A stretch of DNA of 48,472 bases. Source: Terriglobia bacterium. Lineage in GTDB: Bacteria > Acidobacteriota > Terriglobia > Bryobacterales > Bryobacteraceae. The stretch lies in assembly GCA_025363475.1 (NCBI GenBank), contig JANYDS010000045.1, forward strand, positions 1 to 48,472, given 5' to 3'. The position numbers and the translations under genes are program-made. Within the stretch, counting starts at the first letter, position 1, and every line of letters starts with the position of its first letter. Positions 17,686-33,987 of this stretch are shown here, one piece after another. Under the pieces are notes generated by a model that did no database searches, was not told where the DNA came from, and saw nothing but the letters and a program-made list of their open reading frames with translations.

Positions 17686-18654
17686 CTAGCGCGGAGTCAG
17701 TACGGTAACGTTGACGTCGATGGGGGTCGCGAGGACGCCATCGTCCCCATAGGCGCGCAGGCGGTATGTGCCCGGCTCCATGAAAGTGACTTTCGTAGTC
17801 GCATCGCCATTGAGGCGCTCAGCTTTGATCTCAGCCCCCGGAGGCGGAACCATCACCACCGCTACATGCATCGGGGCAAACATGACCGGCGCGGGGCCGC
17901 GATAAAGCACCCAGTTCACTCCCAGGCGAACTCCCGAATCGAGCTTTACGACGGCCTGCGACAAGGGGCTTTCCTTGACCGGCATCACTGATTCAGAAGC
18001 CGCTCCACCGGAGATGATGGCGCCGTCGGAATCACGAATCACATTCACCACGCCAGCCCGGCGCGGACGCGGTTTCGGGTGCCCGTCATCGGAAACCTGA
18101 ATCGTGAGGGTGAGCGTTTCGGGCAGCGTAATGGTGCGCTGTAAAGACCCGACCATCTCCACCGAGGGCGCTTCATTAGGCTCTTCAGGCCAGTTCATGA
18201 CGCCGGGTCCGCCGCGGTTTTCCTGGTAGACCAGGTTGCCCAGTTCCCAAATAGGGGCCAGCGTGCCATAGGCCTTTTCGGCGGGCAGACCGCGTGAGGC
18301 CAGTGTCCACACAAGATCTTTTTTACCCCAGTCTTTCGGTACCTTAATTTTGAAGACGAACTGCTGACGGCGGCGATAGAAATGCGTCGGCTGACCCTGG
18401 TCCGGATTGCCCGGCGAAATATTGTTGTTGGGGCCGGGCGGGATATCCAGCTGCTCTTCGTAGTTCCGGTTCATGTAACCGAAAACCATATTGAAGCTGC
18501 CATCCGGATTGTGTTCCCAGCCTTCGTACACAGGCACTACATTCTGCCCTGCTGCATTCTGAATCTGTGCGGTTGACAGCTGAGGGCAGACCAGCAACAG
18601 TCCCGCCACCGTGGCGCAACAGAGCACCCATTTGGAAACAAACGTCGTCATCAT
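17686..18654 (-). CDS. Exported partner protein of the haem/copper monooxygenase-like protein (copy 1)
   Basis: A 322-residue protein with a clear signal peptide (about residues 1-29, ending LSTAQ). The N-terminal domain contains VYEGWEHNPDGSFNMVFGYMNRN and the strongly conserved PDQGQPTHFYRRR (about 84-96), followed by VFKIKVPKDWGKKDLVWTL. The C-terminal part ends in strands like an Ig or cadherin-type domain (FMEPGTYRLRAYGDDGV). No haem site or clear catalytic motif is visible. A paralogue with the same motifs is at 23215-24219, also directly downstream of a haem/copper gene, so the two proteins probably act together in the periplasm. Function unknown. The start follows the stop of the upstream gene by 3 bases. 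Confidence 0.8.
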   Translation of the reverse strand: MMTTFVSKWVLCCATVAGLLLVCPQLSTAQIQNAAGQNVVPVYEGWEHNPDGSFNMVFGYMNRNYEEQLDIPPGPNNNISPGNPDQGQPTHFYRRRQQFVFKIKVPKDWGKKDLVWTLASRGLPAEKAYGTLAPIWELGNLVYQENRGGPGVMNWPEEPNEAPSVEMVGSLQRTITLPETLTLTIQVSDDGHPKPRPRRAGVVNVIRDSDGAIISGGAASESVMPVKESPLSQAVVKLDSGVRLGVNWVLYRGPAPVMFAPMHVAVVMVPPPGAEIKAERLNGDATTKVTFMEPGTYRLRAYGDDGVLATPIDVNVTVLTPR

Positions 18655-18657
18655 TTA

Positions 18658-19965
18658 TTAGCGCTGGCTGGACAGCACCGCTTTGGCGGCTTTCCGTGCC
18701 GAGACTTCTTTCTTAAATTCGTCGTCACTCATGTAGTAATAATTCAGCCACGAACGCGACATATCGTCACTCGTGCGGTTGCCGAAGCCCACCCAGTTGC
18801 GGGAATCGGGATTCCAGGGATTTTTTGCCGAGTTATCGTGCCATGAAATGGTGTGCATGATGGTGCCGGCGGGAAGCAGCGGGGCCACATCGTCGGCATA
18901 GTTGTAAACAATCTGCCAGCCGAAGTTATACCGATTCACGCAGCTGAGAGTCTCGGTGATCATGTTGGGATAGATCGCTTCAAGGCACTGGGCTTTGCCG
19001 CGATTGTGCATGTGCGGCATGTAACTGGTCAGGCGCGAAGGTTTCTCCAGCTTGAAATACGCATCCGAACGCACGTTATCCGCACCAGCGGGGATGTCGA
19101 GATCATCGTTCATCGGCGTCAGCATGGTGTTCATCACATGCTTCGGAACATAGCCTTTTGGATAGAACACGAATGCGACCTGACTGCGGTCTGTGATGGG
19201 CGTGCCCACCGCATGATAGTGCATGTTGAAGTTGATCTTCGCGCCCGCCTTGATCAGCTTGCCGGAGCCTTCAGCGTACACATCACCATTCTTACCCACT
19301 GCGTATTCATTCAGCGTGCCGCCGCCAGGAGTGCCATCGTCATAAACCAGGCTTGTGACCGCGTGATGAACAACTTTCAAGCCGCCGCCCGAAGAGGGTT
19401 TGGTTTCCACAGCCTTCAGATAGCGGTCCTCGGTAAGTCCGGCATCCACAGTGAAGTTACCCCACCAGTCAGAATTTTCGGGCTTCACGGTAAATGCGAC
19501 AGGCATGGAAACGATCATGTCCGGCTTGCCGATATGCCATTCATCGGCGCTCTCAAACGTGCGGGCGGGCGGCACATCGGCGGCGAGGCCTTCAGGCGCA
19601 CCGGCGTCAACCCACGCGGAAACCGTTGCGATTTCTTTATCTGTCAGTGATGGGTCGTCTTTAAAGCTGCGGATGCCGATGTTTTTATCGATGAACCAGG
19701 GTGGCATTTCGCGCCGGGAGACCTTCTGGCGGATCGATTTTGCCCAGGGTCGTGCGTCTTTATACGTGAGCAGGGACATGGGAGCGATGCTGTCTGCGCG
19801 ATGGCAGTTCTGACAAGCGCGCTGGAAAATGGGAGCAACGTCCTTGTTGAACGTTACCTGCGACACGTTCGCGGCCTTAGGTGCTGACTGCGCACTGGCT
19901 GTGGCCACAGATCCTGCAGCGAGGGCTGCCGCCAGCACACACCGGCCGATTCGTTTTGTCCGCAT
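18658..19965 (-). CDS. Exported haem c / dicopper monooxygenase-like fusion protein (copy 1)
   Basis: 435 residues with a signal peptide (1-26). Residues 38-125 form a cytochrome c-like domain with CQNCH at 51-55 and possible axial Met ligands (APMSL, EMPPW). Residues 140-430 match the copper type II, ascorbate-dependent monooxygenase fold (PHM/DBM): His200-His201, His249-x-His251, His318-x-His320 and Met402 fit the order HH, H, HxH, Met of the two copper sites, and Cys327/Cys342 could be a disulfide. In eukaryotic relatives ascorbate supplies electrons; here the fused haem may do so (inference). The usual substrate in bacterial relatives is unknown. An AGGAG sequence before the ATG supports the start. 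It is first in a two-gene unit. Confidence 0.82.
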   Translation of the reverse strand: MRTKRIGRCVLAAALAAGSVATASAQSAPKAANVSQVTFNKDVAPIFQRACQNCHRADSIAPMSLLTYKDARPWAKSIRQKVSRREMPPWFIDKNIGIRSFKDDPSLTDKEIATVSAWVDAGAPEGLAADVPPARTFESADEWHIGKPDMIVSMPVAFTVKPENSDWWGNFTVDAGLTEDRYLKAVETKPSSGGGLKVVHHAVTSLVYDDGTPGGGTLNEYAVGKNGDVYAEGSGKLIKAGAKINFNMHYHAVGTPITDRSQVAFVFYPKGYVPKHVMNTMLTPMNDDLDIPAGADNVRSDAYFKLEKPSRLTSYMPHMHNRGKAQCLEAIYPNMITETLSCVNRYNFGWQIVYNYADDVAPLLPAGTIMHTISWHDNSAKNPWNPDSRNWVGFGNRTSDDMSRSWLNYYYMSDDEFKKEVSARKAAKAVLSSQR

Positions 19966-19989
19966 TTCGAGGTTCTCCTGTTCGTGTCT

Positions 19990-19995
19990 ATCATA
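19990..19995 (-). promoter_or_regulatory. Possible -10 box of the copy 1 haem/copper operon
   Basis: TATGAT on the minus strand, 24 bases before the ATG at 19965, with AGGAG between, so this transcript would have a normal short leader. No convincing -35 hexamer was found. Confidence 0.35.
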
Positions 19996-20027
19996 TACGC
20001 ATTTTCAGGCCGGCAGCGGGCCTGTTA

Positions 20028-20056
20028 TTGACACTGCAACAGCACTGTACTAAAGT
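20028..20056 (+). promoter_or_regulatory. Promoter of the dihaem cytochrome operon
   Basis: A perfect TTGACA at 20028-20033 is followed after exactly 17 bp by TAAAGT at 20051-20056. The ATG is 10 bases further, giving a leader of only a few bases. This is one of the best sigma-70-type promoters in the window. Confidence 0.65.
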
Positions 20057-20066
20057 CAGGCACGGT

Positions 20067-20879
20067 ATGAAAGCCAGCTTCCGGTTCACAAGATTCCTTC
20101 TTCCGCTCGTGGGCGGTCCACTTTTGCTCGCGCAGGCGCCTGCCCCCGCAGGCGTGAATTATGAGTTTTTCCGCGATAAAGTGCAGCCGATTTTTACTGC
20201 GAAAAGACCCGGACATGCGCTCTGCATTGATTGCCATGACAACCAGGCTCCACGCGTACAGGAACTTGCGCCCGGTGCAAAAACCTGGACCGAAGAGCAG
20301 TCGCGCAAGAATTTCGATGCCTGGAAAACGTTGGTTGTCCCGGGCGAGCCGACTGCCAGCCGGATGCTGATGCACCCCCTGGCGAAAGAAGCCGGGGGCG
20401 ATCCGTTTCACGCAGGCGGAAAACATTTCAAATCCCAGAGCGATCCGGAGTGGCAGATTCTGGCGGCCTGGGTTAGGACAGGGTCTTCCACAACTGCGCC
20501 CGTGGCGGGTGCCGCAGCCCTTGACTACGGCTATTACCGTAAGAACGTGGAACCCATTTTTCTGAAAGAACGGGCAGCGACCGAAGGAACGGGTAATGCA
20601 TGCGCAAGCTGCCATTCGCGGATGGCGTCCCGGTTGCGCCTGCAGCCTTTGAAGGAAGGCACGACGGTGTGGAGTGAAGAACAGTCGCGGGCCAATTTCG
20701 CCGTGGTTTCGAAGCTGGTAACGCCTGGCGATGCGGCGACAAGCCGTTTGGTGCTGCATCCGCTGGCGACCAGGGAAGGCGGCGATCCGACACATACGGG
20801 CGGCAAATTCTGGCCGACGCGCGATCACGCTGATATTAAAACAATCACAGCCTGGATTCAGGGAGAAAAAGCGCAATGA
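20067..20879 (+). CDS. Exported dihaem c-type cytochrome with internal duplication
   Basis: 270 residues from the ATG chosen here; the frame is open further upstream but only this start gives a signal peptide (MKASFRFTRFLLPLVGGPLL, cleavage near 23) and follows the promoter. Two homologous halves each begin with Y-x-F/Y-R-x-x-V-x-P-I-F and contain one haem site: CIDCH at 53-57 and CASCH at 179-183. Each half also has W-[TS]-E-E-Q-S-R and HPLA...GGDP-HxGGK. The pattern resembles planctomycete-type cytochrome C domains. It probably passes electrons in the periplasm, perhaps to or from the neighbouring haem/copper proteins (inference from position). Its stop overlaps the next start in ATGA. Confidence 0.82.
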   Translation: MKASFRFTRFLLPLVGGPLLLAQAPAPAGVNYEFFRDKVQPIFTAKRPGHALCIDCHDNQAPRVQELAPGAKTWTEEQSRKNFDAWKTLVVPGEPTASRMLMHPLAKEAGGDPFHAGGKHFKSQSDPEWQILAAWVRTGSSTTAPVAGAAALDYGYYRKNVEPIFLKERAATEGTGNACASCHSRMASRLRLQPLKEGTTVWSEEQSRANFAVVSKLVTPGDAATSRLVLHPLATREGGDPTHTGGKFWPTRDHADIKTITAWIQGEKAQ

Positions 20880-21889
20880 TCAGTAAATACGTTTTGTTCG
20901 GGGCACTGGTTGCGGTGCTGCCTCTGTCTGCAGCCATGAAGGCCCGTGTGATTCAGACCAACGCGGCGGGCGACAACATCCACGTGATTGATCCGGCTAC
21001 GAATAAAGTGGTCGGCGTCATCGAGGGCATTGAAGTACCGCACGGCACGGTGATTTCGCCGGATGGCAGGCGCATTTATGTAACTGAAGAAGCCACTCGG
21101 ACCATGGACGCCATTGACGCGAAGACACTGAAGGTCATTAAGAAAGTTCTGCTGAGTGGACGGCCGAATAATCTCGCAGTGACGAAGGACGGGCGCAAGG
21201 TTTATGTGGGGATCGCCCAACAGCCGGGCGCGGTGGATGTGATTGACACGGCCACGATGATGAATATCAAGTCAGTCCCGGTGCAGGGAGCGATACATAA
21301 CGTTTATGTGACGCCTGACGGCAAGTATGCGGTGTCTGGGTCAGTTGCGACGGGTGTGATTACCGCGATTGATACTACAACTGATACGGTGGCGTGGTCG
21401 TGGAAAGAGACCAGCGGAATTCGTCCGATGATCTTCACGACTAATCCGGATGGTTCGACTAAAGAAATGATTTTCCAGTTGTCAAATTTCCATGGATTTG
21501 TGGTGGCGGATTTTGCCACTCAGAAGGAAACCCGGCGGGTTACACTGCCGGATGTTCCGGGGATGGACCGTGAAACCGACGGGATACAGGGCGCTCCCGC
21601 CCATGGCCTGATTATTACGAATGACGGCAAGACGCTGTGGAGTACGAGTAAGTACTATGATTACGCTGCTGCCTATTCCCTGCCCGACTATAAGTTAGTC
21701 AAGATTGTGCAGGTGGGTTCGCATCCGGAGTGGCTGACGATTCCCCCGGACGGGAAGAATATGTATGTCGGGTGCGCAGGTACGGATACGACGGATGTTA
21801 TCGACAACAAGACGATGAAGGTGATCGCGAAGATCCCGGTGGGGTTTGTACCGAAGCGCAATACCAGCGGGATGATTGAGACGAAGTAA
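20876..21889 (+). CDS. Exported YVTN-family beta-propeller protein
   Basis: 337 residues with a signal peptide (1-20). Repeats of the YVTN type are clear: ISPDGRRIYVTEEATRT, VTKDGRKVYVGIAQQ, VTPDGKYAVSGS and PPDGKNMYVGCAG, each followed by an I-D-x-x-T strand, enough for a six- or seven-bladed propeller. No catalytic residues are apparent; such proteins often bind partners or substrates at the cell surface or serve as dehydrogenase-like propellers in alcohol or amine oxidation clusters. It is coupled to the dihaem cytochrome by a 4-base overlap, so the two likely work together. Confidence 0.85.
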   Translation: MISKYVLFGALVAVLPLSAAMKARVIQTNAAGDNIHVIDPATNKVVGVIEGIEVPHGTVISPDGRRIYVTEEATRTMDAIDAKTLKVIKKVLLSGRPNNLAVTKDGRKVYVGIAQQPGAVDVIDTATMMNIKSVPVQGAIHNVYVTPDGKYAVSGSVATGVITAIDTTTDTVAWSWKETSGIRPMIFTTNPDGSTKEMIFQLSNFHGFVVADFATQKETRRVTLPDVPGMDRETDGIQGAPAHGLIITNDGKTLWSTSKYYDYAAAYSLPDYKLVKIVQVGSHPEWLTIPPDGKNMYVGCAGTDTTDVIDNKTMKVIAKIPVGFVPKRNTSGMIETK

Positions 21890-21905
21890 GTCGGTTGGTA
21901 CAGGT

Positions 21906-23099
21906 TTAGTCTGTCTTCCATTCCAGACCGGGCATGATTCGCCTCATAAACTCATCGAATAAAGGTACCGTGAATGCGGTGTCACCATGGCTTGGACTCC
22001 AGATCATTCCTTTAGTAATAAGGTTCTGTCGAACCGTCCCCAGAGAGTTGACACTCTTACCTGACGTCTGCGCAATATCGCCCGAGCGGTGAGGCCCCGG
22101 GCCAAGTTCCGCCATTGCTCGCAAATACTTCTTTTCGGCAGGAGTGAGACGATCAAAACGCACCCGAAAGAAACTCTCATCCAGCGCCGCAATTGCTTCA
22201 ACGGACGCTATTGCAAGATCGTTGCCCGTGATCGGATTCTGCGTGGCGACATCCCACGTATGTTTGCCCCATTCCTGTAGAAAGTATGGATATCCGTGTG
22301 TGGCCGCGATGATCCCGTCTACCGCTTCACGGGTAAATTGAACACCTTCATGATTCGCCGGTTTGACGATGGCGATTTCTGCTTCATCGGGTTCGAGTGC
22401 ACCGATCATTGGATAGTCAAACAGCCTTTCGGCATATGACTTCGCATTGCCGGCCAACCCTCTCAATTGAGGCAACCCGGCACCGACTACAGTCAGGGGC
22501 AACCGGCTTTGAGCACACCGGTGGAGCGCCGATATGAGGGCCGCAAATTGGTCACGGTCGAGATACTGAAGCTCGTCGATAAAAATAACGACCACTGTAC
22601 CCGCGTTACGCGCCGCGAGTCCAACTTCTTCAAGCAGAGCGGTCAAGTCAACTTCGAGATCACCATTGTCTGCTAACCCTGCCTCCGGCTCGAAATCCAC
22701 GCCCACTTCTATGTCTGAGTATTTGAACTTGAGGGCTTTGGCGAATCCGGCGAGTGCCTGCAGCCCTCGCTGGGCAAATTTTTTAGCCGCCTCAACACGA
22801 CTGAGGCGGAGCAAAACCAGACGCAACTGGGGCGCGAGCAGCGCTGGAAGAGAGCGGTTCTCCGGTGCCTCTATGCGCAGGGTGTAAGCCCCAAATTCCT
22901 CGGCATCGGTTCTCATGCGATCAAGTAGTACAGTTTTTCCGACGCCGCGCAACCCAACCATGAGGACGCTTTTTGCCCCTTTACCGAGCCGGATTCGTGC
23001 TATGGCGACCCGAACCTGCTCCCGCAGCTTGTCTCTTCCTGCCAGTTCGGGGGGCGGACTGCCTGCACCGGGCGAATAGGGATTGGTCACAGGGTCCAT
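21906..23099 (-). CDS. AAA-type ATPase with C-terminal winged-helix-like domain
   Basis: 397 residues. An N-terminal segment PYSPGAGSPPPELAGRD leads into the P-loop MVGLRGVGKTVLL (about 48-60). Walker B is VVIFIDELQYLD (about 168-179), followed by the sensor-1 region LTVVGAGLPQL. The C-terminal 90 residues (LTPAEKKYLRAMAELGPG, then a helix-turn-helix-like SGKSVNSLGTVRQNLITKGMI) look like a winged helix, as in ORC/Cdc6-like and other STAND-like ATPases. The role is unknown; DNA binding is possible. It has no partner gene on its strand. The promoter has a TATAAT box 6 bases from the ATG and a perfect 15-bp inverted repeat over the -35 region, suggesting tight control, possibly by the protein itself. 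Confidence 0.85.
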   Translation of the reverse strand: MDPVTNPYSPGAGSPPPELAGRDKLREQVRVAIARIRLGKGAKSVLMVGLRGVGKTVLLDRMRTDAEEFGAYTLRIEAPENRSLPALLAPQLRLVLLRLSRVEAAKKFAQRGLQALAGFAKALKFKYSDIEVGVDFEPEAGLADNGDLEVDLTALLEEVGLAARNAGTVVVIFIDELQYLDRDQFAALISALHRCAQSRLPLTVVGAGLPQLRGLAGNAKSYAERLFDYPMIGALEPDEAEIAIVKPANHEGVQFTREAVDGIIAATHGYPYFLQEWGKHTWDVATQNPITGNDLAIASVEAIAALDESFFRVRFDRLTPAEKKYLRAMAELGPGPHRSGDIAQTSGKSVNSLGTVRQNLITKGMIWSPSHGDTAFTVPLFDEFMRRIMPGLEWKTD

Positions 23100-23105
23100 G
23101 GGCTG

Positions 23106-23152
23106 ATTATAGCAACATTAGCGATATTATCTTTTTTAGATAATATCGCTAA
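23106..23152 (-). promoter_or_regulatory. ATPase promoter with perfect 15-bp inverted repeat
   Basis: TATAAT (23106-23111) ends 6 bases before the ATG, so the mRNA is probably leaderless. Arms TTAGCGATATTATCT (23118-23132) and AGATAATATCGCTAA (23138-23152) are exact reverse complements around TTTTT and cover the -35 position. It is too AT-rich and lacks a T-run in the right place for a terminator, so an operator is the better reading. Confidence 0.7.
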
Positions 23153-23160
23153 CCTCTGTA

Positions 23161-23191
23161 TAAAATAACCGATCCGGTCAGGGGACCGGAT
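23161..23191 (-). terminator. Possible terminator after the copy 2 partner gene
   Basis: On the minus strand ATCCGGTC-CCCT-GACCGGAT forms an 8-bp stem (23172-23191), followed by CGGTTATTTTA. The T-tract is short and broken, so termination would be weak. Confidence 0.45.
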
Positions 23192-23214
23192 GCGGCCCGG
23201 GCCGGTCCACCCGC

Positions 23215-24219
23215 CTACTTCGTGACAGTTACCGTCACGTTCTGATACGTAAACATCGACCCGTCACTAGCTATGCCCCGCAGCACATAGATACCCGGTT
23301 CATCAAACGTTGCCTTCGTTATCCACTCACCGTTTGGTGGTGGTTCGGGGATGGTGTACGGCGGAGACCAGGGGGAATTCGCATACGAACGCGAATCCTG
23401 ATATGTCTTCATCTGATCCGGACTGAATGTTACCGCCGCCGCTTTGCCACGATAGACCGTCCACGAGAATCGCAAACCGGGGCCGCTTGACGCCACAACC
23501 GATGACGGAGGCCGGTAGATAGCTACCGCTGAATTTAGCGACGCAGCCGCCCGCGCTGGTGCCGCAGGCTTCTTGTCAGGCGCAGCCATAGCAGGTTTTC
23601 CCGGGTGCAGGGGCTGGGGCTTGCCGTCGCGGCGCGCAGGCAGGTTATCAGGGTCTCCGGCGAGGGCAACCAGCGTATAGGGTTCTCCCGCCTTGACCGT
23701 GATCTTTGTTTCGCCTTTTACTTCCAGCTCCGGAGGAATGTTGTAACGGAGTTCATCGCGCAGGCTTCCCATGTCTCCACCCACTTCGGTGGAAATGACC
23801 TGGGGATCAATCAGGTAATCTTCCTTCAGCGACGCGTACGCTTTTTCGGTTTTACCGTTCGTCGTCAGGGTCCAGATCAGTTCTTTCGTCCCGAAGTCTT
23901 TCGGCACCTTGACGGTAAACAGAAAAGGATTTCGCCGGGGATAAAAATGCGTGGGCTGGCCCTGGTCCGGTCCACCTGGTTCAATCCGATTATCCGGGCC
24001 GACAGGGACGTCAAACTGCTGGTCCCAGTTCGGATTCATATAGCCGAAATACAGCGTGTAGGATTCATCTGCATTTTTCATCCAGCCTTCATAGGCCGGT
24101 TCGATAATCTGCCCTTTGGTGTAGGCAAACCTCATCTGGGCGGCCGCCGGTTGAAGGGCGACCGCCTGGATGAGAATCACACCAAGTAACGTCTTAAAAA
24201 AAATACCGTTCAGACTCAT
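23215..24219 (-). CDS. Exported partner protein of the haem/copper monooxygenase-like protein (copy 2)
   Basis: 334 residues from the ATG used here, which gives a signal peptide (about 1-28, ending PAAAQ) and overlaps the upstream stop by one base (TGATG). The N-terminal domain carries AYEGWMKNADESYTLYFGYMNPN and PDQGQPTHFYPRR, matching copy 1 at 17686-18654, then VKVPKDFGTKELIWTL. A central Pro/Ala-rich stretch (about residues 210-240) is absent from copy 1. The C-terminal strands FDEPGIYVLRGIASDGS again suggest an Ig-like domain. No haem or metal motif is visible. Function unknown, probably a subunit or substrate-binding partner of the haem/copper protein. Confidence 0.8.
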   Translation of the reverse strand: MSLNGIFFKTLLGVILIQAVALQPAAAQMRFAYTKGQIIEPAYEGWMKNADESYTLYFGYMNPNWDQQFDVPVGPDNRIEPGGPDQGQPTHFYPRRNPFLFTVKVPKDFGTKELIWTLTTNGKTEKAYASLKEDYLIDPQVISTEVGGDMGSLRDELRYNIPPELEVKGETKITVKAGEPYTLVALAGDPDNLPARRDGKPQPLHPGKPAMAAPDKKPAAPARAAASLNSAVAIYRPPSSVVASSGPGLRFSWTVYRGKAAAVTFSPDQMKTYQDSRSYANSPWSPPYTIPEPPPNGEWITKATFDEPGIYVLRGIASDGSMFTYQNVTVTVTK

Positions 24220-25664
24220 CAATTTCCCGTCCCGGCTGCTCCAGAAGCCTGTTGCGGCTGAACCGGCGGAGCCCAGCAAAGGGGGCAGCCAATATCAAAT
24301 TCGTTGCGGTTTTTCATTTTGGCCCGGCGCTTTGCCATCTCTGCCTGGAACTGCTCTTCAGTCAGCGAGACTGAATAGCCAAGGTCGATAAACATGTTGG
24401 CGATGGAGCGGCGTCCGCCACCCGCCCAGTTACGGGCGTCAGCGGGATTCTTGTTGGCAGCCGTAGTGTCGAGGAAACCAACCAGATGAACGATGGTGCC
24501 TTTCGGCAGCAGCGGCGCGGCATCGTCATCGTAAACATACTGTTTGACCCAGTTATGGTCATAGCCAACGCAACTCAGGGTCTGGATATTTAAACCCCAA
24601 ATCGCTTCCAGACACATACGCACGCCAGGGGCATGCAGGTGAGGCTCAAACGCAATAATTTTGGTGTGTTCAGTAAGCGTCGCATAGGAATGAAGTTCCT
24701 GCTTCGCCATGTTCGGCTTCACGTCAAGGTCGTTGCCGTTACCCAAAATGATGTTCGATTTTTTGTAAGTCGGTTTATAGCCGCGGGGAAAAAATTTGAA
24801 GGCGAATTCGAGGTGCGATTTCGTCACACGACCGTTCGAATGGATATGGCCCGCAGTGAGCGCGAGCACAGAACCAGCGGAAAGAAGTCTGCCGGCCTCC
24901 GGGGGGAAAAGATCCGCGTTGCGCCCGATTTCGTGAATGGGCCAGGTTGTGCCGTTGGCTTCTCCGCCGCCGGCAGTGAGCACGATACTCGTGTAAGTCA
25001 TGTGGTGGAACACGAAGCGGCCCCCGACAGTTTTCACCGGGCCGGACTTGGGAACATCATTGATCTCCCTGACCTCAAGCGCCGAGACATAGCGGTCTTC
25101 GGTGAGCCCGGTGGGGATCTGACCCACATCGCCCCACTGGTCTGGACCGACAGCAACTACGGTAACTTCCTTGGATTTGACAACCAGATCCGGTTCGCCG
25201 ATGGTCCAGTTATCTGATTCTTCAAAGTTGAGCGGCTTCGGCATGTCACCCGGCTTGCCGCGCGGCGCACCATTGGTGACCCACTTGCCGATCATCGCGA
25301 TCTCTTCCTCACTCAGAGAAGGATCTTCTTTAAACTTCTGGATACCAATATCTTTTTCGACAAAAAACGGTGGCATCAGTCCACCGTGGGGTCCCATGCT
25401 GACCCGCGCCTTGATCGACTTGGCCCAGGGGCGCACATCTTCATACGTCACAAGCGACATGGGCGCAACGCTGTTCGGATGATGGCAGTTCTGGCAACTG
25501 CGCTGTAGCAGGGGCGCGATGTCTTTGGTGAAAGTGATGTCGCCGGGAGCCGGAACTGTCTGCGCCTGTTGAGCAACGGGCGTCAGGAAACCGAGAACGA
25601 CGGCGGCGGGCAGCGCCAGATGGCGTACCCTGATTACCGCTCCGAAAAGAGCTCTGCTGTTCAT
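24219..25664 (-). CDS. Exported haem c / dicopper monooxygenase-like fusion protein (copy 2)
   Basis: 481 residues from the ATG preceded by GGGAGG; a longer frame exists but lacks a ribosome-binding site and would bury the signal peptide (residues 1-34, ending VAQQAQ). CQNCH at 57-61 with APMSL and LMPPF gives the haem c domain. The copper-site pattern is His220-His221-Met222, His273-x-His275, His342-x-His344 and Met424, closer to the canonical HHM of peptidylglycine monooxygenase than copy 1 is. Cys351 and Cys365 correspond to the Cys pair in copy 1. A C-terminal extension (about 450-481) has a CPLC pair and a Pro/Gln/Ala tail. Reaction and substrate unknown; electron entry through the fused haem is inferred. 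Confidence 0.82.
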   Translation of the reverse strand: MNSRALFGAVIRVRHLALPAAVVLGFLTPVAQQAQTVPAPGDITFTKDIAPLLQRSCQNCHHPNSVAPMSLVTYEDVRPWAKSIKARVSMGPHGGLMPPFFVEKDIGIQKFKEDPSLSEEEIAMIGKWVTNGAPRGKPGDMPKPLNFEESDNWTIGEPDLVVKSKEVTVVAVGPDQWGDVGQIPTGLTEDRYVSALEVREINDVPKSGPVKTVGGRFVFHHMTYTSIVLTAGGGEANGTTWPIHEIGRNADLFPPEAGRLLSAGSVLALTAGHIHSNGRVTKSHLEFAFKFFPRGYKPTYKKSNIILGNGNDLDVKPNMAKQELHSYATLTEHTKIIAFEPHLHAPGVRMCLEAIWGLNIQTLSCVGYDHNWVKQYVYDDDAAPLLPKGTIVHLVGFLDTTAANKNPADARNWAGGGRRSIANMFIDLGYSVSLTEEQFQAEMAKRRAKMKNRNEFDIGCPLCWAPPVQPQQASGAAGTGN

Positions 25665-25771
25665 CGAAACCTCCCGGGTACCCTGGCGTTTGACAGCGCT
25701 ATTCGCTCCCGCCGGATTCCCGATCCTTCGTAGCACATTCTACATCCAGTGGACGACAAATGCACTGGTGT

Positions 25772-25800
25772 TTGAAGATTCTCCCTCGCTGTGATACTGT
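25772..25800 (+). promoter_or_regulatory. Promoter of the haem c / PQQ propeller gene
   Basis: TTGAAG (25772-25777), a 17-bp spacer, then TACTGT (25795-25800) preceded by TG-A, an extended -10. The ATG is 7 bases beyond, so the transcript should begin at or next to the start codon. The rest of the 143-base divergent gap shows nothing. Confidence 0.6.
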
Positions 25801-25807
25801 GCGGCCA

Positions 25808-27673
25808 ATGAAGTTCTACTCATTCCTGCTGCCACTTGTGGCCGCCGTGGCCCCTGTTTTGACGGCTGAAACCGGCGATGCCGTATATCAGAAACGATGT
25901 TCCGGATGTCATGAACAGACCAGCGACCGCATTCCGCACAGGGAGGCGCTACAGAAGATGCCTTCCTCCCGAATCCTCCGGACGCTTGATTCCGGAGCCA
26001 TGATGTCCATTGCTTTCACCATGAGCCGGGATGACCGTATGGCCGTCGCGTCCTTTCTCGGAACAACAGCATCTGCAGGCGCGCCGCCAGCCTCGGCGTT
26101 CTGTGCCGACCGCTCCGTCAAACTGGCAGCAACCCCTGCGGCTTCGTGGAATGGCTGGAGTCCTGATGGCGGGGCTTCGGGCAGCGGCGCCGGGAGCAAT
26201 TCCCGCTTTCAAACGGGCGACGCGGCGCGCTTGAATATTGACCAGGTGCGCGGCCTCAAACTGAAATGGGCGTTTGGGTTCGATGGTGATGTCACCGCCT
26301 TCGCCGCGCCAACGGTGATCGATAACGAAGTCTTCGTGGGCAGCGCGGCCGGCCTGATTCATGCCATGCGCGCGGACTCAGGCTGTCTGCAATGGGTGTT
26401 CCAGGCCAACGGGCCTGTGCGGTCGTCCATCCTGGCTGCGCCGCTCCTGGATGCACCCCGTGGAACCCGCCATACGCTGTTGTTCGGCGATATGACGGGC
26501 TGGTTTTATTCCGTCGAAGCGGAAACCGGCAAGTTGCTATGGAAAGTTCATGTGGAAATGCACGATTCCACCCGCCTTACCGGCGGGCCTGCGATGCATG
26601 ACGGAACTGTCTATATTCCAGTGGCTTCGTGGGAGGAAACTCGCGCCGGCGATGCAGGTTACGCTTGCTGCACGTTCCGCGGGAGCGTGGTGGCGTTGCG
26701 CATCAGCGATGGCAAGCAGTTGTGGAAGACTTATATGACAGGTGTGCCTGTCGAGAACGGCAAGAGTCCGCGCGGGACGGCGAATTTCGGGCCGTCCGGT
26801 GTGGGTGTGTGGTCTGCGCCCACTGTCGACGCGAAGCGCAGCCTTCTCTATATCGCGACAGGCGACAACTATTCGGCACCGGCGACGGACTTGAGTGACG
26901 CTGTAGTTGCCCTCGATATGGCAACAGGCAAGATCGCGTGGTCACGCCAGGTCTCAGCAGCGGATGTGTTCAGCGCGGCGTGCGCGGGTGGCGTGGCGTC
27001 TGGTACCACCGCCTGCGGACCCGATTTCGACTTCGGTTCTTCGCCGATTCTGACGCGGTCTTCCGAGGGCAGGGAGTTGATCCTTGCGGGCCAGAAATCG
27101 GGGATTGTCTGGGCTCTTGATCCTGCGAAAAAAGGCGAGGTTGTGTGGCAAACGCGAGTGGGCGTGGGCGGTACTAACGGGGGCGTGCAATGGGGCATGG
27201 CAACAGACGGGCAGCGTGTGTTTGCAGCCGTTTCAGATATCAAACGATTGCGGCAAACCAATCCGAATGACCCGCGCCGTTCGCTGCTGGATCCGAAAAC
27301 CGGCGGCGGCCTGACGGCGCTGCGGGTGGCAGATGGAAAACAGGAGTGGCAGGTGGCTTCGACACCTTGCCCGGAGGGTGCGCCGCTGGGTTGCAGTCCA
27401 TCACAGCCGGGCGCGGTTTCAGAGATTCCCGGGGTGGTATTTGCCAGTTCCACGGACGGGCATATTCGCGCGTATTCGGTGGAAAGCGGCAAGGTGTTGT
27501 GGGACTACAACACGATGAAAGATTTCGATACTGTGAACGGTATCAAGGCGCGCGGCGGGTCAATTGACGGGCCGGGTGCAGTGGTTGTGAACGGGATGGT
27601 GTTTGTGAATTCCGGTTATCCGCGTAATGGCGGCGTGCCTGGCAATGTGTTGCTGGCGTTTGGGCCGGAGTAA
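25808..27673 (+). CDS. Exported haem c / PQQ-type beta-propeller protein
   Basis: 621 residues from the ATG that follows the promoter and starts a signal peptide (MKFYSFLLPLVAAVAPVLTA). CSGCH at 31-35 is a c-type haem site. From about 130 on there are repeated propeller blades with the W-x-x-x tryptophan-docking pattern (LKLKWAFGFDGDV, KLLWKVH, KQLWKTY, KIAWSRQV, EVVWQTRV, KQEWQVA, KVLWDYN), as in quinoprotein and polyvinyl-alcohol dehydrogenases. It could oxidise an alcohol in the periplasm using PQQ and pass electrons to its own haem, but PQQ and Ca ligands cannot be confirmed by eye, so it may only be a structural propeller. No PQQ synthesis genes are in the window. Convergent with vapC. 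Confidence 0.82.
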   Translation: MKFYSFLLPLVAAVAPVLTAETGDAVYQKRCSGCHEQTSDRIPHREALQKMPSSRILRTLDSGAMMSIAFTMSRDDRMAVASFLGTTASAGAPPASAFCADRSVKLAATPAASWNGWSPDGGASGSGAGSNSRFQTGDAARLNIDQVRGLKLKWAFGFDGDVTAFAAPTVIDNEVFVGSAAGLIHAMRADSGCLQWVFQANGPVRSSILAAPLLDAPRGTRHTLLFGDMTGWFYSVEAETGKLLWKVHVEMHDSTRLTGGPAMHDGTVYIPVASWEETRAGDAGYACCTFRGSVVALRISDGKQLWKTYMTGVPVENGKSPRGTANFGPSGVGVWSAPTVDAKRSLLYIATGDNYSAPATDLSDAVVALDMATGKIAWSRQVSAADVFSAACAGGVASGTTACGPDFDFGSSPILTRSSEGRELILAGQKSGIVWALDPAKKGEVVWQTRVGVGGTNGGVQWGMATDGQRVFAAVSDIKRLRQTNPNDPRRSLLDPKTGGGLTALRVADGKQEWQVASTPCPEGAPLGCSPSQPGAVSEIPGVVFASSTDGHIRAYSVESGKVLWDYNTMKDFDTVNGIKARGGSIDGPGAVVVNGMVFVNSGYPRNGGVPGNVLLAFGPE

Positions 27674-30191: not shown

Positions 30192-30226
30192 AATGAACGA
30201 CTGCTTCTTCGCTACTCTTGCGTTAT

Positions 30227-31651
30227 ATGAGCAATCCGGGGGCAAACACAGCAAGCAAAGGGAGCGGAGCGGCCGCAGCCGGTGAAGTATACGCCGGGGC
30301 ATGTTTCCTGGCCGCCGCAGGCTCAGCAGTGCTGTGCGACAGGCTGACGGCCGTCCTGCTGCCGCTCACCACGCTGCTGTTTTATGTCGTGTGCCGTTAC
30401 GCCCGCCGCTACCTGCAGGGAGACCCGGGGCAGGCACGGTTCACGGCCTGGCTCTGCGTCACGGGAAGCTGTGTCTGCGGCCTGATTCTGGCACAAAACC
30501 TGTTGCTTCTCGCCCTGGCATGGAGTGCCACCAGCCTCGGTCTTAATCAGCTTCTGGAGTTTTACAGGGAGCGCCCCGGAGCTCTGCTGGCTGCGAGAAA
30601 GAAGTTTCTGATCAGCCGGCTGGGCGATGCCAGTCTGGTGGGCGCGCTGGCGTCCACATGGCGCAGCTTCCATACCTGGGATTTTCGGCAGATTCTTGCC
30701 GCAGCAGACCAGTTGCGCGCTGCAGGGCCGGAACATCTGCCGACTTCTGTCAGTGCGGTCTGCGTGCTGCTGACTGTCGCGGCGCTGCTGAAATCCGCCC
30801 AGTTCCCCTTCCACAGCTGGCTGCCGGACACTATGGAAACACCCACGCCGGTTTCAGCTTTGATGCACGCGGGCATCATAAATGCCGGCGGGATTCTGGT
30901 CATCAAACTGAGTCCGCTGATTTCGCTCTCGCACGGTGCCATGCTCATCCTGACTCTGTTCGGCGCCTTCACGGCACTCTTTGCCTCCGTCATCATGTGG
31001 ACTCAGACCAGCGTGAAGCGCTGTCTCGCTTTCTCCACCGTGGGCCAGATGGGTTTCATGATGCTCGAATGCGGCCTGGGAGCTTTTCACCTCGCTTTGC
31101 TGCACCTTGTCGCCCATTCGTTTTACAAGGCTCATGCGTTTCTTTCGTCCGGCAGCGTTGTGTCGGCCCGCCCGCGGCCGCAGAGCAACCCATTGAGTGC
31201 GACGGCGGTTCTGGCAGGTCTCTGCTGGAGTGGCGCAATTACCCTTGCCGCGTCAACCGTGTTTGGTACCTCACTGACGGATCAACCGCTGCTCAGCGGC
31301 GTCTTCGCCCTTGCGCTCGCCCAGATGCTGTGGACCGTGTGGAGCCCGGGAACAGGTGTCTGGCTGATGGTGTTCGGCCTTCTGCCTGGTGCATTTTTCG
31401 CCACAGCTTACTTTTCCCTCGAACGGGCCGCTTCTTTTATCGTGCGCCCTGTCGGCTGGAATCACACAGGCATTTCGTTAATTGTGTTCGCGGTTTTTTC
31501 CCTGGCTCTGGCGGCGCAAGTGCAGCTCACGCAGCTTTCCCGTACCCGGTTCGGTACCCGACTCTATGTCCACGCCCGAAATGGCTTTTATTTCAACACT
31601 CTGGCGAATCAGTTGACGCTGGCCATCTGGCCTCAAGAGAAAACTCAATGA
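30227..31651 (+). CDS. dabB: DabB: NuoL/MrpA-like proton-conducting membrane subunit of the inorganic carbon transporter
   Basis: A 474-residue polytopic membrane protein of the proton-translocating antiporter family. The hallmark segment LLKSAQFPFHSWLPDTMETP followed by TPVSALMHAG (about 185-215), with the conserved Lys and His, and SVKRCLAFSTVGQMG (about 262-276) are intact. With DabA it forms the DAB complex, thought to use proton flow to drive one-way hydration of CO2 to bicarbonate in the cytoplasm. ATG 30227 is chosen; a TTG three codons earlier is possible and neither has a clear ribosome-binding site. The stop overlaps the dabA start in ATGA. Confidence 0.88.
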   Translation: MSNPGANTASKGSGAAAAGEVYAGACFLAAAGSAVLCDRLTAVLLPLTTLLFYVVCRYARRYLQGDPGQARFTAWLCVTGSCVCGLILAQNLLLLALAWSATSLGLNQLLEFYRERPGALLAARKKFLISRLGDASLVGALASTWRSFHTWDFRQILAAADQLRAAGPEHLPTSVSAVCVLLTVAALLKSAQFPFHSWLPDTMETPTPVSALMHAGIINAGGILVIKLSPLISLSHGAMLILTLFGAFTALFASVIMWTQTSVKRCLAFSTVGQMGFMMLECGLGAFHLALLHLVAHSFYKAHAFLSSGSVVSARPRPQSNPLSATAVLAGLCWSGAITLAASTVFGTSLTDQPLLSGVFALALAQMLWTVWSPGTGVWLMVFGLLPGAFFATAYFSLERAASFIVRPVGWNHTGISLIVFAVFSLALAAQVQLTQLSRTRFGTRLYVHARNGFYFNTLANQLTLAIWPQEKTQ

Positions 31652-33987
31652 CCGCACCATCTCTTTCGCCCTCGCGTGAAGCTGGGCAGCTTTCCGCTGT
31701 CCAGGCAGCCTGTGAACGCATTGCACCGCTCTGGCCGCTCCAGAATTTTGTGGCTGTCAATCCCTTCATGGGACTCAGCGGCGTAGCCTTTGCCGAAGCT
31801 TCGGAACTGCTCGAAAGAGTGGCGCACAGAGGTATCTTCATGGACGCCTCGTGGTACGTTGAACAGCTCCGCACCGGGGCGATAACGGACGACGACATTC
31901 TCTTGGCGCTGTACGCCACCGACAGCCCTGCCGTTCCCGCGAACCCTTGCCAATGGCTCACCGAACGGCTCCAGTCGAAGCAGACAACCCCGCAATTGCT
32001 GACTGTGGCCGACTGGCTGGATCAAACTACCGGCAGCAACTGGGCCGGTTTCATTACAGATGAAATCTCCAAATGGTGCGCCGCATGGTTCGATTCGTGC
32101 CAGAGTTTGTGGGAGATGCCCTGGCGGAACCTCTCGCTTTATGAAGCCTGGAGGCAGGCCGCCGCCATCGATGCAAATCCGGAGATCGCCGGTATCCCCG
32201 CTTTCCGGCGGCTGGCCGAACAACTGCCGGATTCTGCTGGCGAAGTCATCGACTGGGCACTTGAACGCCTTGACCTGCCTGGAGAGATCACCACAGACTT
32301 CCTGCACCGCGAATTGATGACTGTGTATGGCTGGAGCGCGTATGCCGCCTGTCGGGACCGTACGTTAAACAGCGAGCCGCTGCTCCCTCAGCTTCTGGCC
32401 ATCCGGCTGGTTTACGATACCGCGCTGCTGCGGCCTGAACACTGTTGGAGCGTGCAGAGCGGTCAAACCACCGACAGCGGTGCGCGGGCGGCAAAACACG
32501 TCGCACAACTGGCTCTGGAACACGCCTTCCGGTCCCGGCTCCTTCGGAAATTGAGCCAGCCACCTGCACCTGTTGAGCTGGGGCGGAAGTCCTTGCAAGC
32601 GATATTCTGCATTGATGTCCGTTCAGAGGTCTACCGCCGTGCGTTGGAGTCGCAGTCCACAGCGATTGAAACCCTCGGTTTCGCCGGCTTCTTCGGCATG
32701 CCGGTTCAACTGGCGGATGCCGCCCTCTGCCCCGTCCTGCTATCACCGAAATACACGTTGCGCGGCAGACAAGCAGAATCCAGCCTCCAGCGATTTGGCC
32801 AGCGGATAGCTGCTGCGTGGCAGAGTGTTCGCAGTTCCGCAGCAGGAGCTTTTCCTTCCGTGGAAGCCTCGGGAATTTGGTTCGGTGTGCGCATGTTGGG
32901 CCGGCTATTCCCTGATCACGGAGTCCCGGAACCCATACCGTCGCTTTCATGGCTAATCCCGCTGGCTGAAAAAGTGGACCTCGCAGCCGGGGCACTCAAG
33001 AACATGAGTCTCGACGCCAGCCGCCTGGCCCGGGTGGTGCTGGTGTGCGGGCACGGCAGCCGTACAGAAAACAATCCGTACGGTTCCAGTCTCGATTGTG
33101 GTGCCTGCGGCGGACACAAGGGAGATGTGAATGCCCGTTTTGCGGTCAGCCTGTTGAATGATCGCGAGATCCGGCAGTGCCTGATCTCGCGCGGCGTCAC
33201 GATTCCCGCTGATACGCGCTTCGTCGCCGGACTCCACACAACCACCACGGACGATGTTGTGCTCTATGACGCGGACCAAATCCCGCCGCAGCAGCGTGCA
33301 GAAATCGAGCGGTGGCTCACAGCCGCGTCCGGTGAGGCACGGCGCGAGCGCAGCCGGTCTTTGAACATCGCCGGATCACTTCCCGCGCGCCGCCTCGACC
33401 GGGAAATCCGGCACCGAAGTGTGGACTGGTCTGAGACTCGTCCCGAGTGGGGCCTTGCGGGCAACGCGGCATTCATTGCGGCCCCGCGTTCCCGGACCAG
33501 CGGCGTCAACCTCGGTGGCCGGGTTTTTCTGCATGATTATGACGCCGCATCCGATCCCGATGGTTCCGTGTTAACCATGATCCTGACCGCACCTCTGGTG
33601 GTGGCGAGCTGGATCAATCTTCAATACTATGGCTCCACAGTGAATAACCAGTTGTTTGGCAGTGGCAATAAAGTGCTCCATAATGTTGTCGGCACGTTCG
33701 GAGTCTGGGAAGGCAACGCAGGCGATCTCAGAACAGGGCTGCCGCTGCAGTCGCTGCACGACGGGACAAAGTGGATGCACGAACCCCTGCGGCTGCAGGT
33801 ATTGATTGAGGCCCCGCGGGGCCGGATCGACCGTGTCCTCGCAGCGAACACGGATATCAGGAAACTGGTCGCCAATAGCTGGATACATTTGATGGCGAAA
33901 GAAGGCCCGTCCGTGTATCACTGGCAAAGCGTCTCAGATTGGCGCTGCGACTTCGAATCGGAGCCGGGAAATGTCGGCCCGGGATGA
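31648..33987 (+). CDS. dabA: DabA: carbonic anhydrase-like subunit (DUF2309/UPF0753)
   Basis: 779 residues, normal for the family. The beta-carbonic-anhydrase-like zinc site is complete: Cys321 and Asp323 in IFCIDVRSE, His469 in VCGHGS and Cys484 in SLDCGACGG; the 15-residue spacing of His to Cys equals that in the characterised Halothiobacillus protein (C351, D353, H524, C539). The N-terminal part WPLQNFVAVNPFMG is also diagnostic. It works with DabB at the membrane in energised bicarbonate accumulation. The ATG overlaps the dabB stop by 4 bases; the same frame stays open far upstream, but that stretch is dabB read in another frame. Its 3' end overlaps the start of a broken Rpn-like gene. 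Confidence 0.92.
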   Translation: MTAPSLSPSREAGQLSAVQAACERIAPLWPLQNFVAVNPFMGLSGVAFAEASELLERVAHRGIFMDASWYVEQLRTGAITDDDILLALYATDSPAVPANPCQWLTERLQSKQTTPQLLTVADWLDQTTGSNWAGFITDEISKWCAAWFDSCQSLWEMPWRNLSLYEAWRQAAAIDANPEIAGIPAFRRLAEQLPDSAGEVIDWALERLDLPGEITTDFLHRELMTVYGWSAYAACRDRTLNSEPLLPQLLAIRLVYDTALLRPEHCWSVQSGQTTDSGARAAKHVAQLALEHAFRSRLLRKLSQPPAPVELGRKSLQAIFCIDVRSEVYRRALESQSTAIETLGFAGFFGMPVQLADAALCPVLLSPKYTLRGRQAESSLQRFGQRIAAAWQSVRSSAAGAFPSVEASGIWFGVRMLGRLFPDHGVPEPIPSLSWLIPLAEKVDLAAGALKNMSLDASRLARVVLVCGHGSRTENNPYGSSLDCGACGGHKGDVNARFAVSLLNDREIRQCLISRGVTIPADTRFVAGLHTTTTDDVVLYDADQIPPQQRAEIERWLTAASGEARRERSRSLNIAGSLPARRLDREIRHRSVDWSETRPEWGLAGNAAFIAAPRSRTSGVNLGGRVFLHDYDAASDPDGSVLTMILTAPLVVASWINLQYYGSTVNNQLFGSGNKVLHNVVGTFGVWEGNAGDLRTGLPLQSLHDGTKWMHEPLRLQVLIEAPRGRIDRVLAANTDIRKLVANSWIHLMAKEGPSVYHWQSVSDWRCDFESEPGNVGPG

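Follow-up and report, generated by a model that had tools for sequence, protein, structure and literature searches.

Predicted haem c–PHM-like fusion proteins with a co-inherited partner gene in Acidobacteriota

Introduction

Peptidylglycine alpha-hydroxylating monooxygenase (PHM, EC 1.14.17.3) and dopamine beta-monooxygenase (DBM or DBH) are textbook two-copper enzymes, known mainly from animals and fed with ascorbate; animals use their two-copper domain to hydroxylate neuropeptides and dopamine. Two gene pairs in contig JANYDS010000045.1 of a Terriglobia bacterium (a soil-type member of the Acidobacteriota, assembly GCA_025363475.1), here called the window (48,472 nucleotides), raise the question of whether bacteria own such a domain with a haem of its own as electron source. 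In each pair, an exported protein in which a cytochrome c domain precedes a PHM-like domain (the fusion) is encoded next to a second exported protein (the partner).

Our analysis points to a branch of the PHM/DBM superfamily that carries a fused haem c and is real, widespread and apparently undescribed; inside it, one clade has a co-inherited partner. We put at about 0.6 the probability that each module encodes an exported, haem-c-fed dicopper oxygenase of the PHM/DBM kind with a dedicated immunoglobulin (Ig)-like subunit. The predicted fold class, the ligand set, the haem motif, and the linkage and shared history of the two genes carry this reading. No account of a bacterial haem c–PHM fusion was found in the literature searched, passages of PMC8812541 included, subscription papers and preprints lying outside its scope.

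Two fusion–partner pairs in the window

The four window genes are as follows.

18658..19965, minus strand: fusion 1 (P0001, 435 aa), a cytochrome c domain and then a PHM-like domain behind a signal-peptide-like start; CQNCH at residues 51-55, invariant M87, and H200, H201, H249, H318, H320 and M402
17686..18654, minus strand: partner 1 (P0003, 322 aa), with a signal-peptide-like start, the PDQGQPTHFY motif and an Ig-like C-terminal end (Pfam matches below cut-off); its model is rich in beta structure
24219..25664, minus strand: fusion 2 (P0002, 481 aa), architecture as fusion 1 with an extra C-terminal GCPLC; CQNCH at residues 57-61, and H220, H221, H273, H342, H344 and M424
23215..24219, minus strand: partner 2 (P0004, 334 aa from the ATG at 24219)

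The stop of fusion 1 (18658) and the start of partner 1 (18654) lie 3 nt apart, while fusion 2 and partner 2 overlap by 1 nt, given ATG 24219 as the start, and both pairs look like two-gene operons. The fusions are 38% identical to each other (E 2e-102) and the partners 35% (E 6e-52), with PDQGQPTHFY present in P0003 and P0004. An earlier note on this DNA had described these four genes, each fusion followed by an exported partner with that motif, and had listed the CQNCH site, the His pairs and the Met of both fusions; all four genes and every listed residue were found in place. It had also spoken of two paralogous modules. Both are real, but the genome of origin (4.16 Mb, 96 contigs) holds 18 full-length fusions rather than two. 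These came from 20 fusion matches, the other two being partial, and the same genome has 11 partner genes (15 match rows, four of them second pieces).

The copper domain resembles PHM and DBH in predicted fold and in profile

Because Pfam gave the window fusions no copper-monooxygenase match, a PHM-like call made by eye needed testing. We used two alignments: A3, whose 74 rows are the two window fusions plus the 72 that remained from 79 partner loci after filtering on score, length and completeness, and A7, with the 18 full-length fusions of the own genome. They share two rows and hold 90 distinct sequences. An AlphaFold2 model of the fusion built on the 74-row alignment had a predicted local distance difference test (pLDDT) score of 85.5. 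When this model was searched with Foldseek, the best 31 matches in the Protein Data Bank (PDB) were all DBH or PHM (E 3.9e-11 to 5.6e-8), with template modelling (TM) scores by target length of 0.53-0.66 for PHM chains and 0.35-0.38 for DBH; the predicted model thus has the two-domain PHM fold of the superfamily. A profile of the 18 own-genome fusions reached PHM among PDB sequences at E 3.7e-6 and DBH at 2.2e-5. PF03712 matched at E≤0.01 in one of 74 A3 rows and four of 18 A7 rows, and three own-genome paralogues that pass its cut-off align end to end with the window proteins. The modelling supports a PHM/DBM fold for the fusions, and the sequence profile supports homology of the domain to PHM.

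In the HMMER alignment of the 18-member profile to PHM, the HH pair, the middle H and the HxH line up with their counterparts in PHM, whose ligands are His107, 108, 172, 242, 244 and Met314. Ten positions of P0001 (C51, C54, H55, M87, H200, H201, H249, H318, H320 and M402) are invariant in 74/74 A3 and 18/18 A7 rows, that is, in all 90 distinct sequences. They make up the motif for haem attachment, M87 as a likely axial Met, and the six copper ligands, and invariance on this scale indicates that the motif pattern is not chance. Three His for CuH are followed in order by two His and a Met for CuM, the five His being aligned to PHM and the Met placed by order and invariance only. The PHM/DBM-like copper domain of the earlier note is thus supported, but its seven ligands come down to six: H251, the second His of the middle HxH, matches no PHM ligand and is His in only 64/74 A3 and 14/18 A7 rows. 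The Cys pair that it called conserved (C327/C342) holds in 69/74 A3 rows at each position but in only 9/18 own-genome fusions.

The haem site follows the pattern of a c-type cytochrome, with one CxxCH and a downstream Met (M87) in 74/74 and 18/18 rows and a single CxxCH per protein in 46/46 fusions of a further count. M87 is the presumed axial haem ligand. PF13442, a cytochrome family, matched at E≤0.01 in 39/74 A3 rows. A separate feature, the C-terminal GCxxC (window 24276-24290, C460-C463 of P0002), recurs in 37/74 A3 rows and 5/18 own-genome fusions and is a possible extra metal or redox site.

Partner genes adjoin fusions and share their history

Scanning with a partner profile gave 79 loci, the best of 211 related stretches, mainly from Acidobacteriota with some from Gemmatimonadota and Gammaproteobacteria. 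An adjacent same-strand fusion was present in 73/79, and 85 of the 92 partner open reading frames (ORFs) scoring over 40 bits lay ≤500 bp from a fusion. Since the loci were chosen by partner, this linkage shows that a partner implies a fusion, not the reverse. In the own genome 11/11 partners adjoin a fusion, the partner coming first in two cases (contigs C50 and C73), and five fusions have no partner within 1.5 kb (C95, C43, C7, C39 and C91). A lack of linkage between the two genes was one of the outcomes that, by the earlier note, would refute its idea; linkage is what both surveys returned. On contig C87 of the own genome (25605-31025), three fusions stand in tandem around one partner, two of them close copies.

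Within the family, many genomes have a fusion without a clear partner. Among its 41 genomes surveyed, the fusion profile matched in 31 at E≤0.001 and in 25 of these at E≤1e-40, the weaker matches being possibly cytochrome domains alone. Clear partner genes (>160 bits) occurred in four of the 41 (11 in the own genome, three in G034, one each in G023 and G024), and all 16 adjoin a fusion by coordinates. Weak partner matches in G004, G011, G025 and G026 cover part of the model and lie inside ORFs of 744-995 aa. In the phylum sample a partner match at E≤1e-10, in some cases partial, was found in 34 of 297 genomes drawn, and a fusion-profile match at E≤1e-40 in 41 of 199; copy numbers there are lower bounds, at most seven partner and eight fusion candidates being scored per genome. 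In four of these genomes (G147, G207, G223 and G230), 21 of 22 partner matches lay ≤200 bp from a listed same-strand fusion and the remaining one 1.7 kb off. In the 11 genomes of genus g112 (family f47), the partner match spans no more than the N-terminal domain and lies in an ORF of about 190 aa (seven genomes), 205 aa (two) or 381 aa (two); it stands directly before a fusion in the eight genomes covered by both the partner and the fusion listings. A plasmid search gave no match. The record L039, titled Bifidobacterium breve, has a module that resembles those of Acidobacteriota (51% to the partner query) and is probably a mislabelled metagenome-assembled genome.

We built a quick tree, without bootstrap, of 84 fusions: 46 rows from the own genome and family, and 38 of the 74 A3 rows. 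The presence of a partner needs two changes on this tree versus a mean of 27 for shuffled labels. The 28 rows of other genomes on it came from a partnerless query, some from stretches cut by contig ends; of the labels, that of L024 (the C87 tandem) was set to partner by hand, and L091:6066 was counted as partner on a weak 45-bit match. The 49 partner-linked fusions and one partnerless row (L108:9065) form one group (SH-aLRT 99), so that partner-linked fusions appear to be essentially one clade. A gap in bit scores (≥500 for partner-linked fusions, ≤364 for others) was set aside as proof of the clade in favour of the tree, because profile A3 was built from partner-locus fusions. Window copy 1 groups with L034 and copy 2 with L080, L089 and L090; the two modules are therefore old paralogues and not a recent local duplication. 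Over 56 pairs, fusion and partner distances correlated with a Mantel r of 0.886, which none of 2000 permutations reached (none was above 0.17). Recruitment of the partner once, followed by inheritance as a pair, would be the simplest account.

The partner model (AlphaFold2, pLDDT 86.2) consists largely of beta structure and is of low confidence near residues 200-240, and Foldseek returned mainly Ig-like and similar proteins, all at low TM (≤0.26 by query length). PKD was the commonest Pfam match in partners (14/72 members at E≤0.01). Most invariant columns lie in the N-terminal domain, which holds the YEGW and PDQGQP motifs. The dedicated partner proposed in the earlier note is supported as to linkage and co-inheritance, and we infer a physical subunit from these, although adjacency alone could also give both.

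Unfused relatives in Pseudohongiella

Three PHM-like genes of the gammaproteobacterium Pseudohongiella nitratireducens (L143:2691-7144) are unfused: their products keep the six ligands and lack CxxCH. Among these genes, and on their strand, sits a redoxin–cytochrome c gene (L143:5011) whose cytochrome domain is of the fusion kind. Both of the two unfused relatives that were scanned pass the PF03712 cut-off. Four other Pseudohongiella genes (L144-L147) encode an N-terminal redoxin-like region followed by the cytochrome and PHM-like domains; AhpC-TSA scored above its cut-off in L147 and L143:5011 and below it in L145 and L146, with no match in L144. Domains that are separate in one place and fused in another show the pattern expected if they work together, in whichever direction the electrons run. 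This arrangement strengthens the idea that haem c may replace ascorbate as electron source.

No partner adjoins the L143-L147 genes. The only partner match in the whole genome of P. nitratireducens SCS-49 adjoins the L093 fusion (module at L093:5430-7918, contig C25), which would open the system to direct test in a named isolate.

Substrate clues and neighbouring genes

PHM Arg240, which binds the peptide carboxylate, falls on M316 of P0001 in the HMMER alignment of the 18-member profile. This column is never Arg in the 90 distinct fusions (A3: E45, Q21, M7, W1; A7: Q7, E5, M2 and one each of V, F, G and Y), nor in the four longer Pseudohongiella fusions. It is Arg in 3/3 unfused Pseudohongiella relatives, and the wider family may include carboxylate binders. 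Peptide amidation by the fusions was set aside on the missing Arg, which those unfused relatives keep.

Divergent neighbours of the two fusions, both only putative members of the modules, are:

25760..27673, plus strand: beta-propeller protein of the PQQ type whose N-terminal region is cytochrome-like (PF13442, 24.5 bits against a cut-off of 27), divergent from fusion 2; possible redox neighbour
20064..20879, plus strand: protein with a signal-peptide-like start and two CxxCH motifs, divergent from fusion 1; candidate electron carrier

From 417 candidate neighbour ORFs across loci, filtering on composition and overlap left 134 proteins to be scanned. Over both sides the commonest Pfam family was the pyrroloquinoline quinone (PQQ)-type dehydrogenase (10/134; 7/59 upstream, 3/75 downstream), with a sodium symporter family above it downstream (five matches). 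At L080 the PQQ-propeller/cytochrome-like layout repeats 54 bp upstream of the relative of fusion 2. A PQQ dehydrogenase as a fixed part of the module was left as suggestive: the own genome is rich in PQQ genes (38 PF01011 match rows), which makes the neighbourhood weak evidence, and they stand directly beside only two of its modules (C52 and C54). In L055 an NHL-type propeller gene (Pfam NHL) adjoins a fusion, and in L058 another gene of its cluster does so; the cluster occurs in 5/79 loci. In L061 (3887-5876) and L069 (6938-8927), a partner without a fusion is followed, after 32-35 bp, by a gene whose HVHMDHFGG motif would make it metallo-beta-lactamase-like. Elsewhere in the window (30218-33987, plus strand), a Proton_antipo_M gene, at the DabB-like position, immediately precedes a gene for a DabA-like inorganic carbon transporter subunit (PF10070, E 2e-238).

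Discussion

We propose that the module product is exported, probably to the periplasm, where c-type carriers fed by the respiratory chain or by dehydrogenases would reduce the covalently fused haem c. This haem would in turn reduce CuH and CuM in place of ascorbate, and CuM would activate O2 and hydroxylate the substrate. Because the carboxylate-binding Arg of PHM is absent, a C-terminal-glycine peptide would be an unlikely substrate. In one old clade, which includes both window copies, the Ig-like exported partner is co-encoded and co-inherited, and would most simply be a subunit, bound to the fusion, for recognising or presenting the substrate; substrates would then diversify as the pair was repeatedly duplicated. 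Metal occupancy, the direction of the electrons, O2 chemistry, the complex and the kind of substrate are all predictions of this scheme.

Several observations weigh against it. P0001 and P0002 gave no PF03712 match in Pfam up to E 1, and their cytochrome regions score below the PF13442 cut-off (18.9 and 15.3 bits versus 27). The HMMER alignment to PHM ends before M402, and it is for this reason that the sixth ligand depends on order and invariance. In L147 (586-2364) HH has become HS and the middle His is replaced by Arg; with two CuH ligands lost and the CuM ligands kept, the family cannot consist of dicopper enzymes throughout. No fusion is seen at six of the 79 partner loci, four with none in the stretch (L054, L061, L069 and L071) and two at contig ends (L100 and L102). 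Finally, any two neighbouring genes that are passed on together would show co-divergence, whether or not their products touch.

An O2-using hydroxylase is the most likely reading. Electrons might instead run the other way, the copper domain oxidising a substrate without oxygen insertion, as a copper dehydrogenase or small-molecule redox enzyme, and passing electrons to the haem and on to the respiratory chain. Haem c with copper suits dehydrogenases as well as oxygenases, and PQQ-type dehydrogenases adjoin some loci, but the abundance of PQQ genes in the own genome leaves that neighbourhood weak either way, and the invariant ligands, the CuM Met among them, are the set found in known O2-activating enzymes; we consider reversed flow unlikely. 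It is more improbable still that the fusions are non-catalytic PHM-fold proteins for copper binding, copper delivery or redox sensing with the partner as recipient. The many copies per genome and the redoxin-like N-terminal region of some homologues would suit such a role, yet 90 distinct sequences retain both copper sites and the haem motif, seemingly beyond the needs of storage or delivery, while own-genome copies share no more than 30-55% identity with P0001. It is hardly credible that the fusion is a true bacterial peptidylglycine amidating enzyme. Its nearest solved relatives are indeed PHM and DBH; eukaryotic PAM joins PHM to a propeller lyase, and the NHL-type propellers of L055 and L058 recall this; the Arg of the three unfused Pseudohongiella genes suggests that the ancestral domain may have bound carboxylates. 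Against these stand the Arg240 column, without Arg in every fusion including the longer Pseudohongiella ones, and the rarity of the NHL cluster.

A further alternative concerns the partner only and is compatible with a haem-c-fed oxygenase: it could be an independent secretion, folding or surface-anchoring factor that is merely co-transcribed. The excess of genomes with a fusion (25/41 at E≤1e-40) over those with a clear partner (4) would fit, as would the four partner loci without a fusion and a co-divergence that follows from adjacency alone. However, the pair has been kept through many duplications and in three phyla, with one loss among 50 rows, and we regard an independent factor as doubtful, though a more serious contender than any of the alternatives for the fusion.

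Returning to the haem-c-fed oxygenase with a dedicated subunit, we suggest, tentatively and at less than even odds, a wider generalisation: a modular class in which a haem-wired dicopper oxygenase fusion is combined with a substrate-presenting Ig-like subunit. Duplication would have brought such pairs to about a dozen in a genome of Acidobacteriota, Gemmatimonadota and Gammaproteobacteria would have them as well, and every pair would use respiratory-chain electrons to hydroxylate an extracellular substrate of its own. A large bacterial branch with its own haem wire would be a natural test of the long-argued electron route to CuH and CuM, and would bring to light a large set of extracellular oxidations, as yet unassigned, in soil bacteria.

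Among known systems, PHM resembles the fusions in predicted fold and in five of six copper ligands aligned by profile, the sixth (Met) being invariant in the fusions. Unlike PHM, the fusions are bacterial, have a fused haem c as presumed reductant in place of ascorbate, lack Arg at the peptide-binding column and have an Ig-like partner gene, and no PAL lyase is fused to the two window proteins (no such Pfam match). DBH (PDB 4zel) was the top Foldseek match (E 3.9e-11). DBH carries a DOMON domain, whereas the window fusions have no DOMON Pfam match and add the haem c fusion and the partner gene. The Pseudohongiella L143-L147 proteins, for which no name or study was found in the literature searched, all share the PHM-like domain, and the longer ones the cytochrome domain too; they differ in having either an extra N-terminal redoxin-like region or no fusion, and no adjoining partner. 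Particulate methane monooxygenase with methanol dehydrogenase, of unrelated fold and with no homology claimed, offers an analogy of working only: an exported copper oxygenase set amid a PQQ dehydrogenase and c-type cytochromes.

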